A DNA stretch of 41,732 nucleotides from positions 1-41,732 of the IMG/VR virus record IMGVR_UViG_3300022841_000028. One strand, given 5' to 3'. Position numbers and translations under genes: made by a program. This DNA is from a virus. Of the stretch, positions 20,399 through 39,944 are shown in pieces. The notes under the pieces were generated by a model. The model searched no databases and was not told where the DNA came from. It saw nothing but the letters and a program-made list of their open reading frames with translations. Within the stretch, counting starts at the first letter, position 1, and every line of letters begins with the position of its first letter.

Positions 20399-20880
20399 AC
20401 AATCTCTACTACCTTACCTTCACAGGTTTTAGTTCTACTATTAAACTCTTCTTCGGTTAATTCTTTATCATTAATGTAGTAAGATTTACTTCCGTCTGCA
20501 TACTCCATAGCAGGACCATCTTCTCTATGACGCTTATCATTAATATAGTAAAATTTACATCCGTCTGTATGTTCAATAGCAGGACCATCTTCTCGGTGGC
20601 GTTTACCATTAATATAGTAAAATTTATATCCGTCTGTATGTTCTACAGCAGGACCATCTTCTCTATGCATTTCACCATTAATATAATAAGCTTTATATCT
20701 ATTAGCATATTCTATAGCAGGTCCATCTTCTCTATTAAGTTCACCATTAATATAATAGTATTTGTCTCCATTAACATCCTCAATAGCAGGCCCATCTTCT
20801 TTGTGAAGTTCACCTTCTAAGTTATACCATCTAGTACACTCTTTATTTACTTTTACTTTGTATTCTTTCATAACTTTCAT
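20395..20880 (-). CDS. REDGPA-type repeat protein
   Basis: 161 residues with about six repeats of 22-23 residues, each of the form REDGPA[IVM]E, then about eight residues, then YYIN[GD]. These resemble MORN/YwqK-like repeats common in Bacteroidota, large phages and giant viruses; such repeats form short beta-hairpins. The last unit ends in LTEEEFNSRTKT. No catalytic residues. It is coupled to the UvsE fragment by a 4-nt overlap. Role unknown; a binding surface is likely. Confidence 0.75.
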   Translation of the reverse strand: MKVMKEYKVKVNKECTRWYNLEGELHKEDGPAIEDVNGDKYYYINGELNREDGPAIEYANRYKAYYINGEMHREDGPAVEHTDGYKFYYINGKRHREDGPAIEHTDGCKFYYINDKRHREDGPAMEYADGSKSYYINDKELTEEEFNSRTKTCEGKVVEIV

Positions 20881-21805: not shown

Positions 21806-21828
21806 TTATTATAACCTAAATATACGAA
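21806..21828 (-). promoter_or_regulatory. Bacteroidota-type promoter
   Basis: Minus strand TTCGTATATTTAGG followed by TTATAATAA; -7-like TATATTTA. A CTGG stands where the -33 TTG would be, so the -33 box is weak. Located 14 nt before the start of the 46-residue gene. Confidence 0.7.
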
Positions 21829-23886: not shown

Positions 23887-24093
23887 TTAGTCCACGCTTA
23901 TTAATTTACATTTGTCTTTAAATCGGTTACATTCAATTGCTTCTAAGGCTTCTATTTTAGTACCGTAAAAACCCGTAGTCATTCCATCTATATTATTAAA
24001 GTTGTACCAAAATGGTATGTACCAAACCTTTTTTTGCACCTCAAAACTTGTTGAGTGAAAATTTTCGTGCTTTTTAATTCTATATTTTGCCAT
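23887..24093 (-). CDS. Cassette-borne small protein, 68 residues
   Basis: MAKYRIKKHENFHSTSFEVQ, then KKVWYIPFWYNF and GTKIEALEAIECNRFKDKC: the strand-strand-helix layout of small Bacteroidota proteins of unknown function. I start at the second in-frame ATG (24093), because the 7 extra codons upstream fall inside the inverted repeat between cassettes. The gene stop is followed by GCGTGGACTAATG...ACGT, a possible cassette core site. Not recognised further. Confidence 0.65.
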   Translation of the reverse strand: MAKYRIKKHENFHSTSFEVQKKVWYIPFWYNFNNIDGMTTGFYGTKIEALEAIECNRFKDKCKLISVD

Positions 24094-24100
24094 AATAATA

Positions 24101-24225
24101 ACGCCACACAGCACTGTATATAAAACATTGCCTTTGTGGTCTTTTTTTAAGTTAGTTAATAATTCAAAATTTATTGTTTATCTGTTAAGTTTTGGCTGGC
24201 AACGTTTCATACACCGAACGTTGCC
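24101..24225. repeat. attC-like imperfect palindrome 1
   Basis: Left arm 24111-24132 (GCACTGTATATAAAACATTGCC) pairs with right arm 24198-24225 (CAACGTTTCATACACCGAAC core) with a few mismatches, separated by a 65-nt AT-rich loop. It lies between two single-gene units. Outer cores resemble TAAC/GTT. Integron attC sites have this form; that identity is inference. Confidence 0.55.
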
Positions 24226-24232
24226 AATACTA

Positions 24233-24421
24233 CTACTCTATAGGCATCCACCATTCTAAGTTTTTAACTAACTCCACATCATCGTTTGCGGGTACATATA
24301 TTTCACTTGGGTTATCTTCAAAATCAGACCATATACCAATTTCAGGCAATGTAGAATGGCTTGCTTTAAATACTATTATTTGGTCTTTACTTGGTTTCTT
24401 TTGTCCTAATGTATATTTCAT
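24233..24421 (-). CDS. Cassette-borne small protein, 62 residues
   Basis: Starts MKYTLGQKKPSKDQIIVFKA, then LPEIGIWSDFEDNPSEIYVP and a Trp-rich end (EWWMPIE). Compact, soluble. It fills one unit between palindromes at 24101-24225 and 24458-24523, with no promoter motif of its own, as in integron cassettes. Family unknown. Confidence 0.65.
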   Translation of the reverse strand: MKYTLGQKKPSKDQIIVFKASHSTLPEIGIWSDFEDNPSEIYVPANDDVELVKNLEWWMPIE

Positions 24422-24457: not shown

Positions 24458-24523
24458 GGTAACACCGTATATAATTAACCCTAAAAAGGGTCGCTATCGC
24501 TTAATTATATACAATTTATTACC
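24458..24523. repeat. attC-like imperfect palindrome 2
   Basis: Left arm 24458-24478 (GGTAACACCGTATATAATTA) pairs with right arm 24501-24523 (TTAATTATATACAATTTATT then ACC): about 18 of 21 positions pair with a 2-nt bulge. The 22-nt loop contains a CCC...GGG mini-stem. It separates the 62- and 66-residue units. Confidence 0.65.
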
Positions 24524-24795
24524 ACAAATTTAAAAAGGAAGGCAGTCATCACAACAAGGTATATACCTTTTTGGAGGTTCGTATATTTCAAGATATTTAG
24601 TTCCACAAGGGCAAGTTACTTCGTGTGGTTTAGGTAATAACTTTGGTGTTTTATCCTTAAAAAAACGTGTGGTAACAATGTATAAACTCCATTGCTTTAT
24701 ATTTCCAAAGGTGTTTTTTAATCTATTCATTTTGGTTTTACTTTAAAGGTTATTTAATATTTATAAGGTCACAACGTATCTTATACTTAGCGTTA
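24519..24795. repeat. 277-bp duplicated cassette, copy 1
   Basis: Matches 37880-38156 over 277 nt with two differences seen (G/T near 24735 and A/G near 24771). Identity starts at TTACCAC and ends at GCGTTA, that is, at the core sequences of the flanking palindromes, and contains exactly one gene. This is the pattern expected when a cassette moves as a unit. Confidence 0.85.
24530..24730 (-). CDS. Cassette-borne Cys-rich protein, copy 1
   Basis: 66 residues, identical to the protein at 37891-38091. Cysteines C40-x-C42 (CPCGTKYLEIYE) and C59-C60-x-x-C63 (YIPCCDDCLPF) suggest a small zinc ribbon. The N-terminal half is basic. The identical amino acid sequence at two sites 13 kb apart points to a recent copy. 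Function unknown. Confidence 0.7.
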   Translation of the reverse strand: MNRLKNTFGNIKQWSLYIVTTRFFKDKTPKLLPKPHEVTCPCGTKYLEIYEPPKRYIPCCDDCLPF

Positions 24796-24808: not shown

Positions 24809-25006
24809 TTACTCGCTTTCTACTTCACATTCAGCATCAGGCATTATTCCAAATACCTCTTTTATTGTTTCTTTAGAGTGTCCGTCTATTTCTAAAGCCA
24901 ACTCTATTGCATTTCTAATAGCATAAGGGTAGTGGCACGTTTTAGTATCTATTGTTACTATTGGTGATTGGCTTTCGTTTTGGTTTCTTTCAATAATTAT
25001 TTTCAT
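24809..25006 (-). CDS. Unknown early protein, 65 residues
   Basis: Starts MKIIIERNQNESQSPIVTID, contains CHYPYAIRNAIELALEIDGH and an acidic C-terminus. I take the ATG at 25006 rather than the upstream GTG/ATG at 25036, because 25006 gives the usual 4-nt ATGA overlap with the gene before it. Last gene of the operon that starts at the 26404-26426 promoter. Function unknown. Confidence 0.65.
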   Translation of the reverse strand: MKIIIERNQNESQSPIVTIDTKTCHYPYAIRNAIELALEIDGHSKETIKEVFGIMPDAECEVESE

Positions 25007-35002: not shown

Positions 35003-35199
35003 GGTACGTCTACTGAATTACTTACTGAATTACTTACTAAATTATGTACTGATTTATATACTGAATTCTGTACTGAATTCCATACTGAATTACGTAATGA
35101 ATTACTTACTAAATTACGTACTGAATTACTTACTGATTTATATACTGAATTCTGTACTGAATTCCATACTGAATTACGTAATGAATTACCTAATATCAT
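34984..35199 (-). CDS. Tetrapeptide-repeat (S-V-x-N) protein 1
   Basis: 71 residues: MILG, then about 15 tetrapeptides of type N-S-V-x, where the fourth position varies (R, W, Q, Y, S, R, S, R, W, Q, Y, H, S, S, D), then VPIKLEL. At DNA level the unit is AATTCAGTA plus one changing codon, and the segment R-W-Q-Y is repeated about 40 residues later. Such SVxD/SVxN runs occur, as I recall, within DUF6745 proteins; the DUF6745-like gene lies 560 nt upstream. Start and leader are copied in repeat protein 2. Confidence 0.6.
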   Translation of the reverse strand: MILGNSLRNSVWNSVQNSVYKSVSNSVRNLVSNSLRNSVWNSVQNSVYKSVHNLVSNSVSNSVDVPIKLEL

Positions 35200-35399
35200 A
35201 TTTCTATATTTGTTACTTTATGTACTGAATTACGTACTGAATTATGTACTGAATTACTTACTGAATTACTTACTAAATAACTTACTGAATTACTTACTGA
35301 ATTACTTACTAAATAACTTACTGAATTACTTACTGAATTACGTATTGAATTCCATACTGAATTATGTACTAAATTATGTACTGATTTACCTAATATCAT
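35196..35399 (-). CDS. Tetrapeptide-repeat (S-V-x-N) protein 2
   Basis: 67 residues: MILG, then tetrapeptides N-S-V-x with x in the order H, H, W, R, S (eight times), H, R, H, then KVTNIEI. Some units have YLV or NLV in place of NSV. It overlaps protein 1 by 4 nt (ATGA). The start and its leader (ATATAGAAATATGATATTAG on the minus strand) are shared with protein 1, so the pair arose by tandem duplication. Confidence 0.6.
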   Translation of the reverse strand: MILGKSVHNLVHNSVWNSIRNSVSNSVSYLVSNSVSNSVSYLVSNSVSNSVHNSVRNSVHKVTNIEI

Positions 35400-35464
35400 A
35401 TTTCTATATTTACCTGTTTAAAAAGTATGGGAGAATATTATTATTCCCCCCATATTAATTTTAA

Positions 35465-36935: not shown

Positions 36936-36957
36936 TATTATACCGTGAATATACGAA
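36936..36957 (-). promoter_or_regulatory. Promoter variant with upstream element
   Basis: Minus strand TTCGTATATTCACGG then TATAATAG. AATAAATACGATTTT lies upstream at about 36979-36994. It drives the DUF6745-like gene. Confidence 0.65.
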
Positions 36958-37014: not shown

Positions 37015-37110
37015 TTATCTTTCATCTGTTTATAAATTTTAATTATTAATATTAATTTTGTAACTCTTTAAAGGTGGTTACGACACCATATTCAACACGT
37101 TAGTGGCAAT

Positions 37111-37464
37111 TTAAACGAACTCCCAATTAACAACTTCCTCTGTATCTAAATAAATTCTTTCTTTAAACATTCGGTTAATGACAAATTGAACGCCTCCCCA
37201 ACTATTGATACTTGCTAAAAAAGATTTATATTTCTTTCCGTTTTTCAACGTGATTTCTACATCCATCCAACAAGGTGGTAATTTAGGAAAATCCTCTACT
37301 TTGTTTCCTGACTTTATCCATAAATTACATATTTTTTTATGTATAGATAAATCTTTTTTAGTAACATAATCAGCAATCGTCTCCAAAGATAAACTGCCAC
37401 TAACACTCGCTATAAGTAATGGCGGTTTAATGCTAATTTGGTGTTTTGTGCTTTCTGTTGTCAT
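37111..37464 (-). CDS. Cassette-borne protein, 117 residues
   Basis: MTTESTKHQISIKPPLLIAS, then LWIKSGNKVEDFPKLPPCWM, DVEITLKNGKKYKSFLASIN and EEVVNWEFV. Alpha-beta, soluble. The stop lies 13 nt from a GTTAGTGGC sequence resembling a cassette core. No promoter motif of its own. Family not recognised. Confidence 0.65.
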   Translation of the reverse strand: MTTESTKHQISIKPPLLIASVSGSLSLETIADYVTKKDLSIHKKICNLWIKSGNKVEDFPKLPPCWMDVEITLKNGKKYKSFLASINSWGGVQFVINRMFKERIYLDTEEVVNWEFV

Positions 37465-37525
37465 TTGTGCTTAATTTAAAGTGAGTAGTTCTAATTACGC
37501 CACTACTCATAGCGGATGCCGTTAG
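37465..37525. repeat. Short cassette boundary site with inverted repeat
   Basis: GAGTAGT and ACTACTC form a 7-bp inverted repeat with a 12-nt loop, followed by GCCGTTAGC, a core like those at 38156 and 38621. It lies between the 117- and 76-residue units. Confidence 0.4.
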
Positions 37526-37756
37526 CTACAATAAGCTAATTTCGTGTTTTACCTTATCCCAATATTCAAATTCAGCTTTCCATAACATACTTTCTTTATA
37601 TTGGAACATTGGTTTGTTAAGTAAATCTTGTGCTTCGTTAGCCAAAACCAAAGCAAGTTTTTTACACATTCCATTAACTGTGCTTGGTTGGCTATTAAAT
37701 TCTGTTTCAAACTTCATTTTTTCATAAAGTTGCTTTGCTTTTTTACTTGGTGTCAT
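37526..37756 (-). CDS. Cassette-borne helical protein, 76 residues
   Basis: KKAKQLYEKMKFETEF, CKKLALVLANEAQDLLNKPM and EFEYWDKVKHEISLL. The pattern (C-x-x-x-ALxxANE and YWxxVKxEI) recalls a family of small helical proteins seen in Bacteroidota and phages. One gene per unit; the palindrome at 37792-37882 lies just upstream. Function unknown. Confidence 0.65.
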   Translation of the reverse strand: MTPSKKAKQLYEKMKFETEFNSQPSTVNGMCKKLALVLANEAQDLLNKPMFQYKESMLWKAEFEYWDKVKHEISLL

Positions 37757-37791
37757 AATTTAATTTTTGTGCTTCTAACCTACTTACAGTA

Positions 37792-37882
37792 GTTAACAAT
37801 GTATATAGTTTATAAGCCATTTAATATTCGTTTTCAATTGTAAATTTCTGCTATGGCTTACAAAACCATATACTAAACGTTA
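37792..37882. repeat. attC-like imperfect palindrome 4
   Basis: Left arm 37792-37820 (core GTTAAC; ATGTATATAGTTTATAAGCC) pairs with right arm 37853-37882 (ATGGCTTACAAAACCATATA then CTAAACGTTA), about 22 paired positions with bulges. The outer ends are GTTAAC and AACGTTA. It is the best attC-like site in the window. Confidence 0.7.
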
Positions 37883-38156
37883 CCACAAATTTAAAAAGGA
37901 AGGCAGTCATCACAACAAGGTATATACCTTTTTGGAGGTTCGTATATTTCAAGATATTTAGTTCCACAAGGGCAAGTTACTTCGTGTGGTTTAGGTAATA
38001 ACTTTGGTGTTTTATCCTTAAAAAAACGTGTGGTAACAATGTATAAACTCCATTGCTTTATATTTCCAAAGGTGTTTTTTAATCTATTCATTTTGTTTTT
38101 ACTTTAAAGGTTATTTAATATTTATAAGGTCGCAACGTATCTTATACTTAGCGTTA
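37880..38156. repeat. 277-bp duplicated cassette, copy 2
   Basis: Partner of 24519-24795. The left end is inside the GTTACC core of palindrome 4 and the right end inside GCGTTA of site 5. DNA outside these cores is unrelated between the two loci. Confidence 0.85.
37891..38091 (-). CDS. Cassette-borne Cys-rich protein, copy 2
   Basis: 66 residues, identical to the protein at 24530-24730: C40-x-C42 and C59-C60-x-x-C63, probably a zinc ribbon. The synonymous sites are unchanged as well, so the copies separated recently. Confidence 0.7.
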   Translation of the reverse strand: MNRLKNTFGNIKQWSLYIVTTRFFKDKTPKLLPKPHEVTCPCGTKYLEIYEPPKRYIPCCDDCLPF

Positions 38157-38158
38157 GC
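38129..38158. repeat. Short cassette boundary site 5
   Basis: Same short palindrome as at 24768-24798 (CAACGTATCTTATACTTAGC then GTTAGC). The TAA stop of the 64-residue gene (38154-38156) is part of the GTTA core, as with some integron cassettes. Confidence 0.5.
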
Positions 38159-38348
38159 AGTAATTTAAAGGCAACCAACCTATCGTATCGTTGAACTCAA
38201 CAAAACGATGAAGTCCGCTATTGTCTTTAAATACTTTTGTTTTTATTTCACTGCCATCTTTTAAAACTGCAATAAAATCAAAACCTTCGGTGTTAGGTAT
38301 TAGTGCTAATTCTTTCATTTTTAAGTTATTTATTTGATTAATATTCAA
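38154..38348 (-). CDS. Cassette-borne protein, 64 residues
   Basis: MNINQINNLKMKELALIPNT, FDFIAVLKDGSEIKTKVFKD and FVEFNDTIGWLPLNYC. The true start could be the ATG 10 codons later (MKELALI). Small beta-rich domain. Its stop coincides with a cassette core. The tRNA-like element lies just upstream. Confidence 0.6.
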   Translation of the reverse strand: MNINQINNLKMKELALIPNTEGFDFIAVLKDGSEIKTKVFKDNSGLHRFVEFNDTIGWLPLNYC

Positions 38349-38357
38349 TTACTTATA

Positions 38358-38390
38358 TCCACAGAAGGTTATAAATAAACCTCTGTGGAA
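38358..38390. terminator. Hairpin between tRNA-like element and 64-residue gene
   Basis: TCCACAGAAGGTT (38358-38370) pairs with AACCTCTGTGGA (38379-38390), 12 bp with one bulge and a short AT loop. The plus strand continues with ATTTTTG, a U-run; the minus strand has no clear U-run. Terminator-like; direction uncertain. Confidence 0.5.
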
Positions 38391-38396
38391 TTTTTG

Positions 38397-38524
38397 TGAG
38401 ACAGGTTGGATTCGAACCAACAACCCTATTTTATTAAGTACGCTAATACTTTTTTATTTAGGTTTTTTAAAAAAACTTGTACTTCGTTTTTTATAATAGC
38501 GTCTGCCAATTCCGCCACTATCTC
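38397..38524 (-). tRNA. Leucine-tRNA-like element, abnormal anticodon region
   Basis: The minus strand begins GAGATAG and ends CTGTCTC plus A, a full 7-bp acceptor stem. TGGCGGAATTGGCAGACGC is the D-arm typical of bacterial tRNA-Leu. GTTGG-TTCGAAT-CCAAC is a perfect T-arm. The middle, about 77 nt of A/T-rich sequence, gives no normal anticodon stem with U33; a 7-bp A6C/GT6 stem with a 9-nt loop and a small AAGTA/TACTT stem can be drawn. It is 128 nt against about 85 for a normal tRNA-Leu. It may be a pseudo-tRNA or carry an insertion. Confidence 0.55.
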
Positions 38525-38571
38525 ATATTTTGACCATATTTCTGAACTCAGCAAAAAGGCATAAAACTACA

Positions 38572-38624
38572 CCTAACACTGTATAAAAGCCATAGAAAAA
38601 ACGGCTCTTATACTCACGTTAGCG
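38572..38624. repeat. attC-like imperfect palindrome 6
   Basis: Left arm 38572-38591 (CCTAACACTGTATAAAAGCC) pairs with right arm 38603-38624 (GGCTCTTATACTCACGTTAG), about 17 paired positions. Outer cores are CTAAC and GTTAG; the TAA stop of the 69-residue gene (38619-38621) lies in the GTTA core. Confidence 0.65.
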
Positions 38625-38828
38625 TTCATTTGCCCACTTTGCACCTTCTCTAAACATTTTCCTAGCCCAATACAATTTACCTTCATCCCAATGCGGTTCA
38701 TCATCATCATCATCATTATATTGAACTATACTTCTTTTTTCAAGTTCTATATCAATTTCATCATCAAACGAAACGCTAACACTATGTAAAGTGAATGGCT
38801 TTTTGGTTTTTGAAGTTTCGGTTTTCAT
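38619..38828 (-). CDS. Cassette-borne acidic protein, 69 residues
   Basis: MKTETSKTKKPFTLHSVSVS, a run of acidic residues (YNDDDDDEPHWDEGK) and a basic helical end (WARKMFREGAKWANER). Stop codon inside a cassette core. Polar domain halves suggest a binding adaptor; unknown. Confidence 0.6.
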   Translation of the reverse strand: MKTETSKTKKPFTLHSVSVSFDDEIDIELEKRSIVQYNDDDDDEPHWDEGKLYWARKMFREGAKWANER

Positions 38829-38863
38829 ATTAAAAGTTGTTTAAGTGTGAAAATATGTAGCTT

Positions 38864-38989
38864 TTAACAGTTATCAATACTTCCTGCATTTATTTGAGAA
38901 CTCCATTTACCAACCCTTATCCAAAACCATTTGTGTTTTAGTCCAATTCCAAACTTACTTTCAACGTGTCTTTCTTTGTAAAATCTCAT
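38864..38989 (-). CDS. Cassette-borne small protein, 41 residues
   Basis: MRFYKERHVESKFGIGLKHK, then WFWIRVGKWSSQINAGSIDN and C. I use the ATG at 38989 because the 32 codons before it fall in the palindrome at 39006-39102 and have no protein-like character. Basic and Trp-rich. Family not recognised. Confidence 0.5.
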   Translation of the reverse strand: MRFYKERHVESKFGIGLKHKWFWIRVGKWSSQINAGSIDNC

Positions 38990-39005
38990 AATATTAAATT
39001 TAAAA

Positions 39006-39102
39006 GCTGCTAACAATAAATAAATTGAATAGTGCATTGCAGCCGTTTTGCTTCTATCCAAGTGTAGTGAAGATGCACTACTCATTTTATTAAGGTCGTT
39101 AC
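39006..39102. repeat. attC-like palindrome 7
   Basis: TAGTGCAT (39030-39037) and ATGCACTA (39073-39080) are a perfect inverted repeat, and the outer edges are GCTGCTAAC and GTCGTTACC. It separates the 41- and 88-residue units. Confidence 0.45.
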
Positions 39103-39105
39103 CAA

Positions 39106-39372
39106 CTATAAACTGCTTTTTGCAATCCCAAGGAATAAATCAATATCCCAATTATCGTCAGGAATTTCCCCACGTTTATAAAACTCATACGCCGTTAACA
39201 GTTCCCTTCGGTTGCTAACAACGGGTATAGTTAATTTTTTAACAGCCTCATCGTAATCGTACAACATTGTAAAGCAATCAGGAACATCTCCTCCGCTTGG
39301 CTTCCATTTTCTAATATCTTTTATCAGATTTGTTTTAAGTTCTAATAATTCACTTTTCTCTATATTATCCAT
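39106..39372 (-). CDS. Cassette-borne protein, 88 residues
   Basis: MDNIEKSELLELKTNLIKDI, DCFTMLYDYDEAVKKLTIPV, and LTAYEFYKRGEIPDDNWDID. Acidic and helical, no motif. GTTAGCAACC, a cassette core, lies just upstream at 39415-39425. Function unknown. Confidence 0.65.
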   Translation of the reverse strand: MDNIEKSELLELKTNLIKDIRKWKPSGGDVPDCFTMLYDYDEAVKKLTIPVVSNRRELLTAYEFYKRGEIPDDNWDIDLFLGIAKSSL

Positions 39373-39416
39373 AATTTATCTATTTATCCGTTAAAAATCT
39401 AACCATACCCAAACCG

Positions 39417-39527
39417 TTAGCAACCATACAGAATAATAAACTCCTGCCAAGGCTGCAATACTTTAGCTGTTAATATTGTAATAGCCTTCAAAGGTTCCCC
39501 TCCAGCATCAATATCACTCTTTTTATC
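39417..39527 (-). pseudogene. Remnant ORF at the end of the cassette block
   Basis: 36 open codons, DKKSDIDAGGEPLKAITILT continuing as KVLQPWQEFIILYGC and TAA, with no start codon. Composition is protein-like, and the stop lies in a GTTAGCAACC core. It looks like the 3' end of a cassette gene whose 5' part is missing. Confidence 0.45.
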
Positions 39528-39826
39528 TTATAAAACTCTTTGTCCAAATTTCAGTTATGGAATGTTACCCTTTACACTAGGTCGATATGGTTAATCTATA
39601 TATCCGTGAAGATATCTAACATCTCTACAATAAACACAACTGCTGATACAGTCTATAATTATTATCTACCAAACGTTCTTATGGTGGTTATAGATATAAA
39701 ATTATCGTTTATCTTCAATCAAAGAGTTTAAAATTAGCTTTTCGGGTCTTACAAGGTTACTGCATGAATGAGAGGCTAACCTTTACCTTAATCTCAATTT
39801 AATCAGCTTTACTGCTAATAATATTT
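39528..39826. other. Non-coding stretch
   Basis: No acceptable gene on either strand; the plus-strand frame at 39540-39731 has no neighbours or promoter. It lies between the cassette remnant and the long hairpin and is AT-rich. Confidence 0.5.
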
Positions 39827-39944
39827 TTATATAACAATAAACAATAGGGCTCGTGAGAATATCTCTACTTAACGTCTTAGGAGCTGTTGACGTAGTTCCA
39901 AGCTACTCCAGTTACGCTATGCCCTATTGTTTATTGTTATATAA
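39827..39944 (-). ncRNA. Candidate non-coding RNA: 24-bp perfect inverted repeat with 70-nt insert
   Basis: 39827-39850 and 39921-39944 are perfectly complementary over 24 nt (ending AACAATAAACAATAGGGC on the plus strand). The 70-nt insert can fold further (ACGTC with GACGT; GGAG with CTCC). A phage-type promoter (39976-39998) stands 32 nt upstream on the minus strand, with no ORF between. The plus strand has TTTTTT after the right arm, so a rightward terminator is an alternative use. No reverse transcriptase or transposase is seen nearby. Confidence 0.6.

Follow-up and report, generated by a model that had tools for sequence, protein, structure and literature searches.

Integron-like gene-cassette arrays with reversed polarity and no integrase gene of their own in a Bacteroidota phage genome

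The IMG/VR virus record IMGVR_UViG_3300022841_000028 (positions 1 to 41,732, the whole stretch of 41,732 nucleotides being called the window here) carries two regions, array 1 at 37.1-39.4 kb and array 2 at 23.85-25.0 kb, in which short genes are found together with imperfect palindromes of the attC type known from integrons. We hold with considerable confidence that both regions are mobile gene-cassette arrays of a phage-adapted integron-type system, the enzyme of which is probably supplied in trans. This is carried by the sites and their covariation, the unit boundaries, the duplication and exchange of units between phages, the reversed polarity of genes and sites, and the linkage of an integrase to such arrays in other phages. 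A preliminary description, made from the sequence alone, had proposed an integron-like cassette array without integrase for array 1, and this is supported as the best reading of the region: PF00589 is absent from the window, no recombinase signature was found in a further 17.8 kb of this phage that adjoin it (59.5 kb in all), and a candidate clade occurs in other phages.

Array 1 consists of seven short genes on the minus strand and of five attC-type imperfect palindromes with AAC/GTT edges on the plus strand. These are S1 (37402-37523, with a long loop), S2 (37795-37881), S3 (38035-38155, with a weaker stem), S4 (38575-38620), the loop of which carries the 20-mer AAGCCATAGAAAAAACGGCT, and S5 (39012-39100, with a 76% identical copy in locus L035). 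S2, S4 and S5 lie where the preliminary description had placed its best palindromes with GTTA/TAAC-type cores. In a stem scan three sites of the array 1 region scored at least 24, as compared with 0.03 on average when the region was shuffled 60 times by dinucleotides. The arm matrices were trained only on integrase-linked sites from contigs other than the window; when both strands of the whole 41.7 kb were scored, their top five hits were the five sites of array 1 (37402-39100), all on the plus strand, while shuffled sequence gave 1.05 hits of at least 19 per whole window and both strands. The outer stem covaries: in alignment A1 87.5% of the cells were paired and 29 double changes were counted, against 17.0 after shuffling and 1-12 in the slid controls. 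The minus strand folded better than the plus strand at all five sites of the window, with modest z-scores. In place of the usual extrahelical base of attC the window sites have an A.C mismatch or a G.T pair. Since the R1 model fits the short-loop sites best and misfolds the long-loop ones, the long sites were judged by the script scan.

The five sites are thus palindromes bounded by RYYYAAC and GTTRRRY cores, above the level of the shuffles. With five attC-type sites and no neighbouring integrase the region belongs to the clusters of attC sites lacking integrases (CALIN), defined by at least two attC sites. A complete integron (intI plus attI) is not present in the window, where a recombinase is absent and no attI was identified. 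By its layout the window is therefore filed as a CALIN and not as a canonical integron.

Movement of units is recorded within the window itself. One cassette is present twice, at 37880-38156 in array 1 and at 24519-24795 in array 2 (gene 24530-24730 on the minus strand, site 24674-24794 on the plus strand), the two copies being identical at 275 of 277 nt (99.3%), and the identity stops at cores on both sides. The left edge falls between G and TT: copy 1 starts just past the G/TT of S2, reading ACTAAACG/TTACC, and in array 2 the same TTACC is preceded by ATTTA. The right edge lies in the GTTA of the next site, S3 in array 1 (GCGTTA/GCAG versus GCGTTA/CCCA). At either end the cassette and its new flanks have GTTA or less in common. 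Contig G882 belongs to this phage as well, with 99.98% identity over 24,645 nt, and stops 127 nt into the duplicated cassette. Such an end would be expected if the cassette were preceded on its left by two different neighbours there also; the 127 nt probably correspond to the word size of the assembler. On G882 (L340 591-3575) a 994-aa terminase large subunit was also seen, the terminase matches of which are interrupted in the middle by approx. 400 aa, possibly an intein or an insertion.

Between related phages and the window entire units have been gained or lost, the breaks being located at the cores; the proposal of the preliminary description, for which gene gain or loss away from the palindromes had been named as contrary evidence, has therefore withstood this test. 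In the loci L015 and L023 the 54-aa cassette and S4 lead directly into the 88-aa cassette; the units that the window has between S4 and S5 are absent, with the core as the point of junction. The end of L023 consists of 127 nt identical to window 38975-39101, a core-bounded piece. Among the internal homology ends of the phage loci fetched, 51 of 169 fell within 5 nt of a core, compared with 58 of 3380 random positions. The core-proximal ends were at R' in 42 cases and at R'' in 9, while the random positions were distributed as 31 and 27, thus the natural breakpoints point to an exchange at the G/TT of R'. An exact duplication of 394 nt in L170 and a 100% identical match of 210 nt between L019 and L037 are not mere ends of site similarity. 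Units are found in cultivated phages as well: the gp38 methyltransferase cassette of the Polaribacter phage P12002L recurs in L022, from an uncultured phage, with 98% identity over 856 nt and with another attC site attached. In this pair (L022 3764-4619 and L072 31374-32227, the latter being P12002L) the homology stops at R''.

The direction of the sites was determined by three lines of evidence, namely the arm motif held in common with class 1 attC (AACAAT versus the AAACGTT side), the preference for breakpoints at R' and the folding of the minus strand. In the control, the class 1 aadA1 and dfrA1 sites were scored as canonical by this rule. In phages the genes were opposite to the polarity of attC in 28 cases, the same in 1 and mixed in 2, whereas in Bacteroidota chromosomes they were the same in 29 cases, opposite in none and mixed in 7. 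Genes opposed the sites by 100 to 1 in the integrase-linked phage arrays, and in the 20-mer loci 91 of 96 neighbouring open reading frames (ORFs) were on the strand opposite to the site. With the phage genes opposed to their sites, a gene has its attC at the 5' end. Start codons in the phages are mostly 25-35 nt from short sites or, where the sites are long, within the loop; the TAA stop is often supplied by the core. The cassette layout with attC sites, suggested before, therefore holds for the units and their cores and not for their canonical order: instead of a co-directional attC 3' of the gene, the window and the phages have genes and attC sites of opposed polarity, and each gene of the window starts at or in its own attC. 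It was also considered whether an upstream attC lends start codons to swapped-in genes. This idea was dropped, as the R' breakpoints put the site in the unit of the gene that starts there.

The site family is enriched in phages. The 20-mer of the S4 loop was found in 48 IMG/VR stretches, including Cellulophaga phage phi13:2, always in palindromes of the AAC...GTT type, a few of them with a damaged core. In 84,980 prokaryote species genomes it occurred four times, once as a true site, on a 13-kb contig of a metagenome-assembled genome, and three times by chance within coding sequence. Less similar sites of the family exist in bacteria: among 399 Flavobacteriales genomes 24 had model hits with E<=0.001, and among 395 Bacteroidota genomes 9, some of these hits being in arrays.

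Tyrosine recombinases adjoin sites of this kind both in chromosomes and in phages. In the Flavobacteriales genome G150 a 277-aa tyrosine recombinase (L117 10642-11475) is followed directly by canonical gene-plus-attC units; this segment (L117 10642-13280) looks like a complete chromosomal integron with an XerA/IntI-like recombinase scoring under the cut-off of TIGR02249. Further family recombinases adjoin sites in G135, G200, G365 and G328, and the chromosomal ones beside canonical attC arrays have 277-383 aa. G001, a phage contig of 246 kb with a terminase gene, encodes a 271-aa relative, 41-49% identical to the aligned chromosomal enzymes, beside reversed cassettes; a stretch adjoining the recombinase of this contig is 88% identical to the S1 region of the window. 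One and the same 56-aa gene is found near both recombinase genes of G001 (L335 15346-15516 and L336 9592-9762).

Searching IMG/VR with the phage enzyme of G001 yielded 182 relatives, of which 80 were kept. Loci for the linkage analysis were picked by the enzyme alone, and 37 had full flanks. Sites were present on the 5' (array) side of the enzyme in 32 of these 37 loci. This side held 89 sites and the 3' side 6, while shuffled sequence of 216 kb gave 2. The enzyme gene thus adjoins arrays in most of the phage loci, as it does in several chromosomes; attI is not defined in them. In integrase-bearing phages it comes after a co-directional array, in the chromosomal example before the array. In the tree 30 phage enzymes form one clade (100/100), separate from 12 chromosomal ones. 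The catalytic residues R135, H221, R224, H247 and Y256 (numbering of the first sequence) are invariant in alignment A3, in agreement with the pattern R..HxxR..H/W..Y, and the IntI-specific stretch of approx. 40 residues is missing from the four family members that were aligned with IntI1. The family enzymes tested score 151-231 bits with TIGR02249 (cut-off 265; IntI1 507), their matches being split in two pieces. PF03237 terminase was detected in 14 of 47 records tested, including contigs of 208-362 kb; the other records are viral by their IMG/VR label. The best-ranked matches to the phage enzyme in isolate phages reach only 35-37% identity. For 85 cassette proteins of the integrase-linked arrays there were eight matches to Pfam protein families with E<=0.001, five being to DNA methyltransferase families and one to the restriction-alleviation protein Lar. 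This pattern fits a counter-defence role, most of the cargo being of unknown function.

On these grounds the following mechanism can be proposed. On the plus strand a unit would consist of TT(A) with the stop codon of the gene, of a short reversed gene and of the attC-type site, the last G/TT being the exchange point. The minus (coding) strand, when single-stranded, would fold to a hairpin which a tyrosine recombinase would cut at the core, and by such cutting units could be excised, inserted and duplicated whole. The enzyme most likely acts in trans and may come from the phage integrase clade, by co-infection or from an unsequenced part of the phage's own genome, or from a related integron of the host chromosome. 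We infer from the linkage that the integrase acts on these sites, and further that it does so in trans, that the folded strand is its substrate and that the cargo counters host defences.

Several other explanations have to be considered. The acting enzyme may be a host chromosomal integrase of the Flavobacteriales type, such as the one encoded at L117 10642-11475, and not a member of the phage clade. The existence of chromosomal integrons and the lack of a recombinase in most array-bearing phage contigs speak for a host enzyme, but the arrays of integrase-bearing phages are reversed like those of the window and the phage enzymes constitute a separate clade; we consider this source possible, though less probable than not. 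T4-like phages recombine efficiently, and homologous or illegitimate recombination between similar hairpins might shuffle units with no site-specific enzyme at all. Some breaks at R'' would agree with this, and so would the hybrid sites at L006 1361-1415 and L032 7623-7678, in which the arms of two site types are joined over a shared loop and which suggest homologous recombination within sites. Such a process is nevertheless unlikely to explain the arrays, given the match of GTTA or less between the duplication and its flanks, the preference for R' (42:9 against 31:27 for random positions) and the position of the recombinase clade on one defined side of the arrays.

The array could also be a passive fossil, i.e. 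a fragment of a cassette array from a bacterial chromosome that was acquired once by the phage and has been immobile since. The absence of an integrase from 59.5 kb of this phage, the partly worn sites of array 2 and the existence of Flavobacteriales chromosomal arrays of the same site family are in line with such an origin. It is largely refuted, however, by the 99.3% identical duplication and by the gain and loss of units between related phages, both of which mean recent movement. The polarity is moreover opposite to all 29 scored chromosomal sites and the 20-mer is almost missing from bacterial genomes, hence we judge a fossil very improbable. The palindromes might, finally, be no more than hairpins between genes that serve as terminators or in RNA processing and happen to resemble attC. 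Their intergenic position, the possible folding of the RNA and the modest fold z-scores of single sites would be compatible with such elements, but the fixed AAC/GTT edges, the orientation bias, the covariation, the unit-exact breakpoints and the integrase linkage are unlike terminators and leave this explanation hardly credible.

Some observations weigh against a mobile integron-type system in this phage. Recombination is read here from sequence comparisons, and none was observed directly. The z-scores of the DNA folds are modest, one control segment reaching -2.2. Some of the 42 homology ends at R' represent site homology ending at its own edge, so this count overstates the events, and the 9 of 51 breaks at R'' are not explained by a simple exchange at R'. 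Most contigs with the 20-mer have no detectable tyrosine recombinase, though most of them are fragments. The arms of the integrase-linked sites are somewhat unlike those of the window sites, and the candidate integrase lacks a domain reported as necessary for IntI activity.

At the left end of array 1 lies a truncated attC-type site (37080-37105, plus strand), read from the sequence as the GTT-side half only (..ACACCATATTCAACACGTTAG); the homology of the array to L003 and L004 begins within it, at 37101. The seven genes follow on the minus strand. The 117-aa gene (37111-37464) has its ATG in the loop of S1 and a 77% identical homologue in L003/L004, where both the N-terminus and the upstream site are different. 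The 76-aa gene (37526-37756), the stop codon of which adjoins the core of S1, shows a weak match to phrog_21441 of unknown function. The 66-aa gene (37891-38091) of the duplicated cassette has its ATG in the loop of S3 and is identical to the gene at 24530-24730. TAA is supplied by the core in the two cases described before, i.e. in the 54-aa gene (38154-38318), which L015/L023 also have, and in the 69-aa gene (38619-38828). A 41-aa gene at 38864-38989, or one of 73 aa if the ATG at 39085 within S5 is used, precedes the 88-aa gene (39106-39372), which has a counterpart in L015/L023, 88% identical over 140 nt and directly after S4. The cassette of the 54-aa gene also contains a tRNA-like sequence (38397-38524, minus strand; Rfam tRNA, 33.9 bits) with approx. 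50 extra nt and no ARAGORN call; 108 nt of its sequence are absent from L015/L023. The cassette proteins of the window have almost no Pfam or PHROG matches and gave no tblastn matches in isolate phages, and relatives of the flanking 383-aa gene were not found in IMG/VR.

A promoter-like repeat of this phage, ATATACGAAY, flanks array 1 on the plus strand at 36949 and 39990 and does not occur on this strand between them. Motifs of this type are intergenic, occur on the plus strand at 21820, 22450, 22642, 29576, 36949, 39990 and 41703 of the window, often just upstream of minus-strand genes, and are perhaps phage promoters. Just outside array 1 (39827-39944) the two halves of a perfect 24-nt inverted repeat are separated by 70 non-coding nt. 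The large palindrome there (39833-39938) received a score in the scan and was not counted as attC, being almost symmetric and outside the array. Internal direct repeats of 71-85% identity at 35011-35411 and 20464-20814 are possibly repetitive proteins or non-coding repeats. The label 'T4-like', given to the phage earlier, agrees with baseplate-wedge, terminase and primase matches, by which it was tested in part.

Array 2, which had been overlooked along with the duplicated cassette and the tRNA-like sequence, has four genes of the array 1 kind and worn sites. A 67-aa gene (23887-24087, minus strand) belongs to a stretch, 23909-24094, with a 94% identical counterpart in L041. It is followed by a degenerate attC-type site (24097-24229, plus strand) that has lost the AAC of R'', was read from the sequence and was not called by the scan. 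Next come a 62-aa ORF (24233-24421, minus strand), an attC-type site with a worn core (24458-24524, plus strand; R1 model 18.7 bits), the second copy of the duplicated cassette and a last small ORF (24809-25006, minus strand).

The preliminary description knew of no such array in a T4-like Bacteroidota phage. This has to be corrected, since phage CALINs, that of P12002L among them, are already published. Qi et al. 2023 (PMC9892861) reported 17 of them, found the virulent phages P12002L (Polaribacter), TJE1 (Tetrasphaera) and PH101 (Pseudoalteromonas) to be CALIN-bearing, and demonstrated recombination by IntI1 at five of the six phage sites in their assay, one active site being from P12002L. 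P12002L resembles the window in having attC sites and small cassettes without an integrase; its sites are of the same family (R1 26.1 and 22.8 bits) and its cargo includes a DNA methyltransferase. Qi et al. tested two of its sites and called their directions divergent, whereas in our analysis the top five model hits are on one strand and the genes on the other. Their report on P12002L contains no dedicated phage integrase of the clade described here, no duplication and no unit-exact exchange. In Cellulophaga phage phi13:2, an isolate on a Bacteroidota host, the DNA methylase gene gp36 lies between a site of the family and an attC-like palindrome. The tyrosine recombinase of this phage, gp38, was rejected as the acting enzyme, being a distant XerD-like match (29.5 bits) outside the clade.

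The phage system has in common with sedentary chromosomal and class 1 integrons the R''/R' cores, the imperfect palindromes, the exchange point at the G/TT of R', one small gene per unit and complete forms adjacent to a tyrosine recombinase. It is unlike both in that the genes oppose the attC polarity and in the integrase, which lacks the approx. 40-residue IntI stretch and falls below the TIGR02249 cut-off. The best family match of the enzymes is to XerA-type recombinases (NF040815, 'site-specific tyrosine recombinase/integron integrase'; PDB 4a8e, 5hxy), the chromosomal one scoring 245 bits and the phage ones 184-195 bits. The phage enzymes thus do not reach the NF040815 cut-off (220 bits), and they make up a separate clade tied to reversed arrays, while the catalytic residues are shared. 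According to IntegronFinder 2.0 (PMC9024848) Salinibacter ruber M1 alone has a complete integron within Bacteroidetes proper. Integrases are identified by IntegronFinder through the IntI-specific domain (PMC9668308), therefore integrons such as those described here from chromosomes and phages would escape it. In the literature outside subscription journals and preprints we found no papers on jumbo-phage integrons or on reversed cassettes.

Integrons are currently viewed as bacterial devices that phages occasionally acquire. We consider it reasonably probable that Bacteroidota phages, jumbo phages included, run an integron lineage of their own, with an XerA/IntI-like clade devoid of the IntI domain, a phage-only pool of attC-reversed genes, and array and integrase in one co-directional operon, and that smaller, T4-like phages, this one among them, draw on the common pool while lacking the enzyme. 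If the linkage of clade and arrays holds, complete integrons are present in many uncultured phages and remain unseen by software which needs the IntI-specific domain. Small genes, among them some anti-restriction genes and methyltransferases, would then be swapped as discrete cassettes, and this would provide a mechanism by which phage genomes turn over their small genes so fast. As gene and attC are joined in the reverse order in the phage pool, the question of how genes and attC sites become joined would also become testable.

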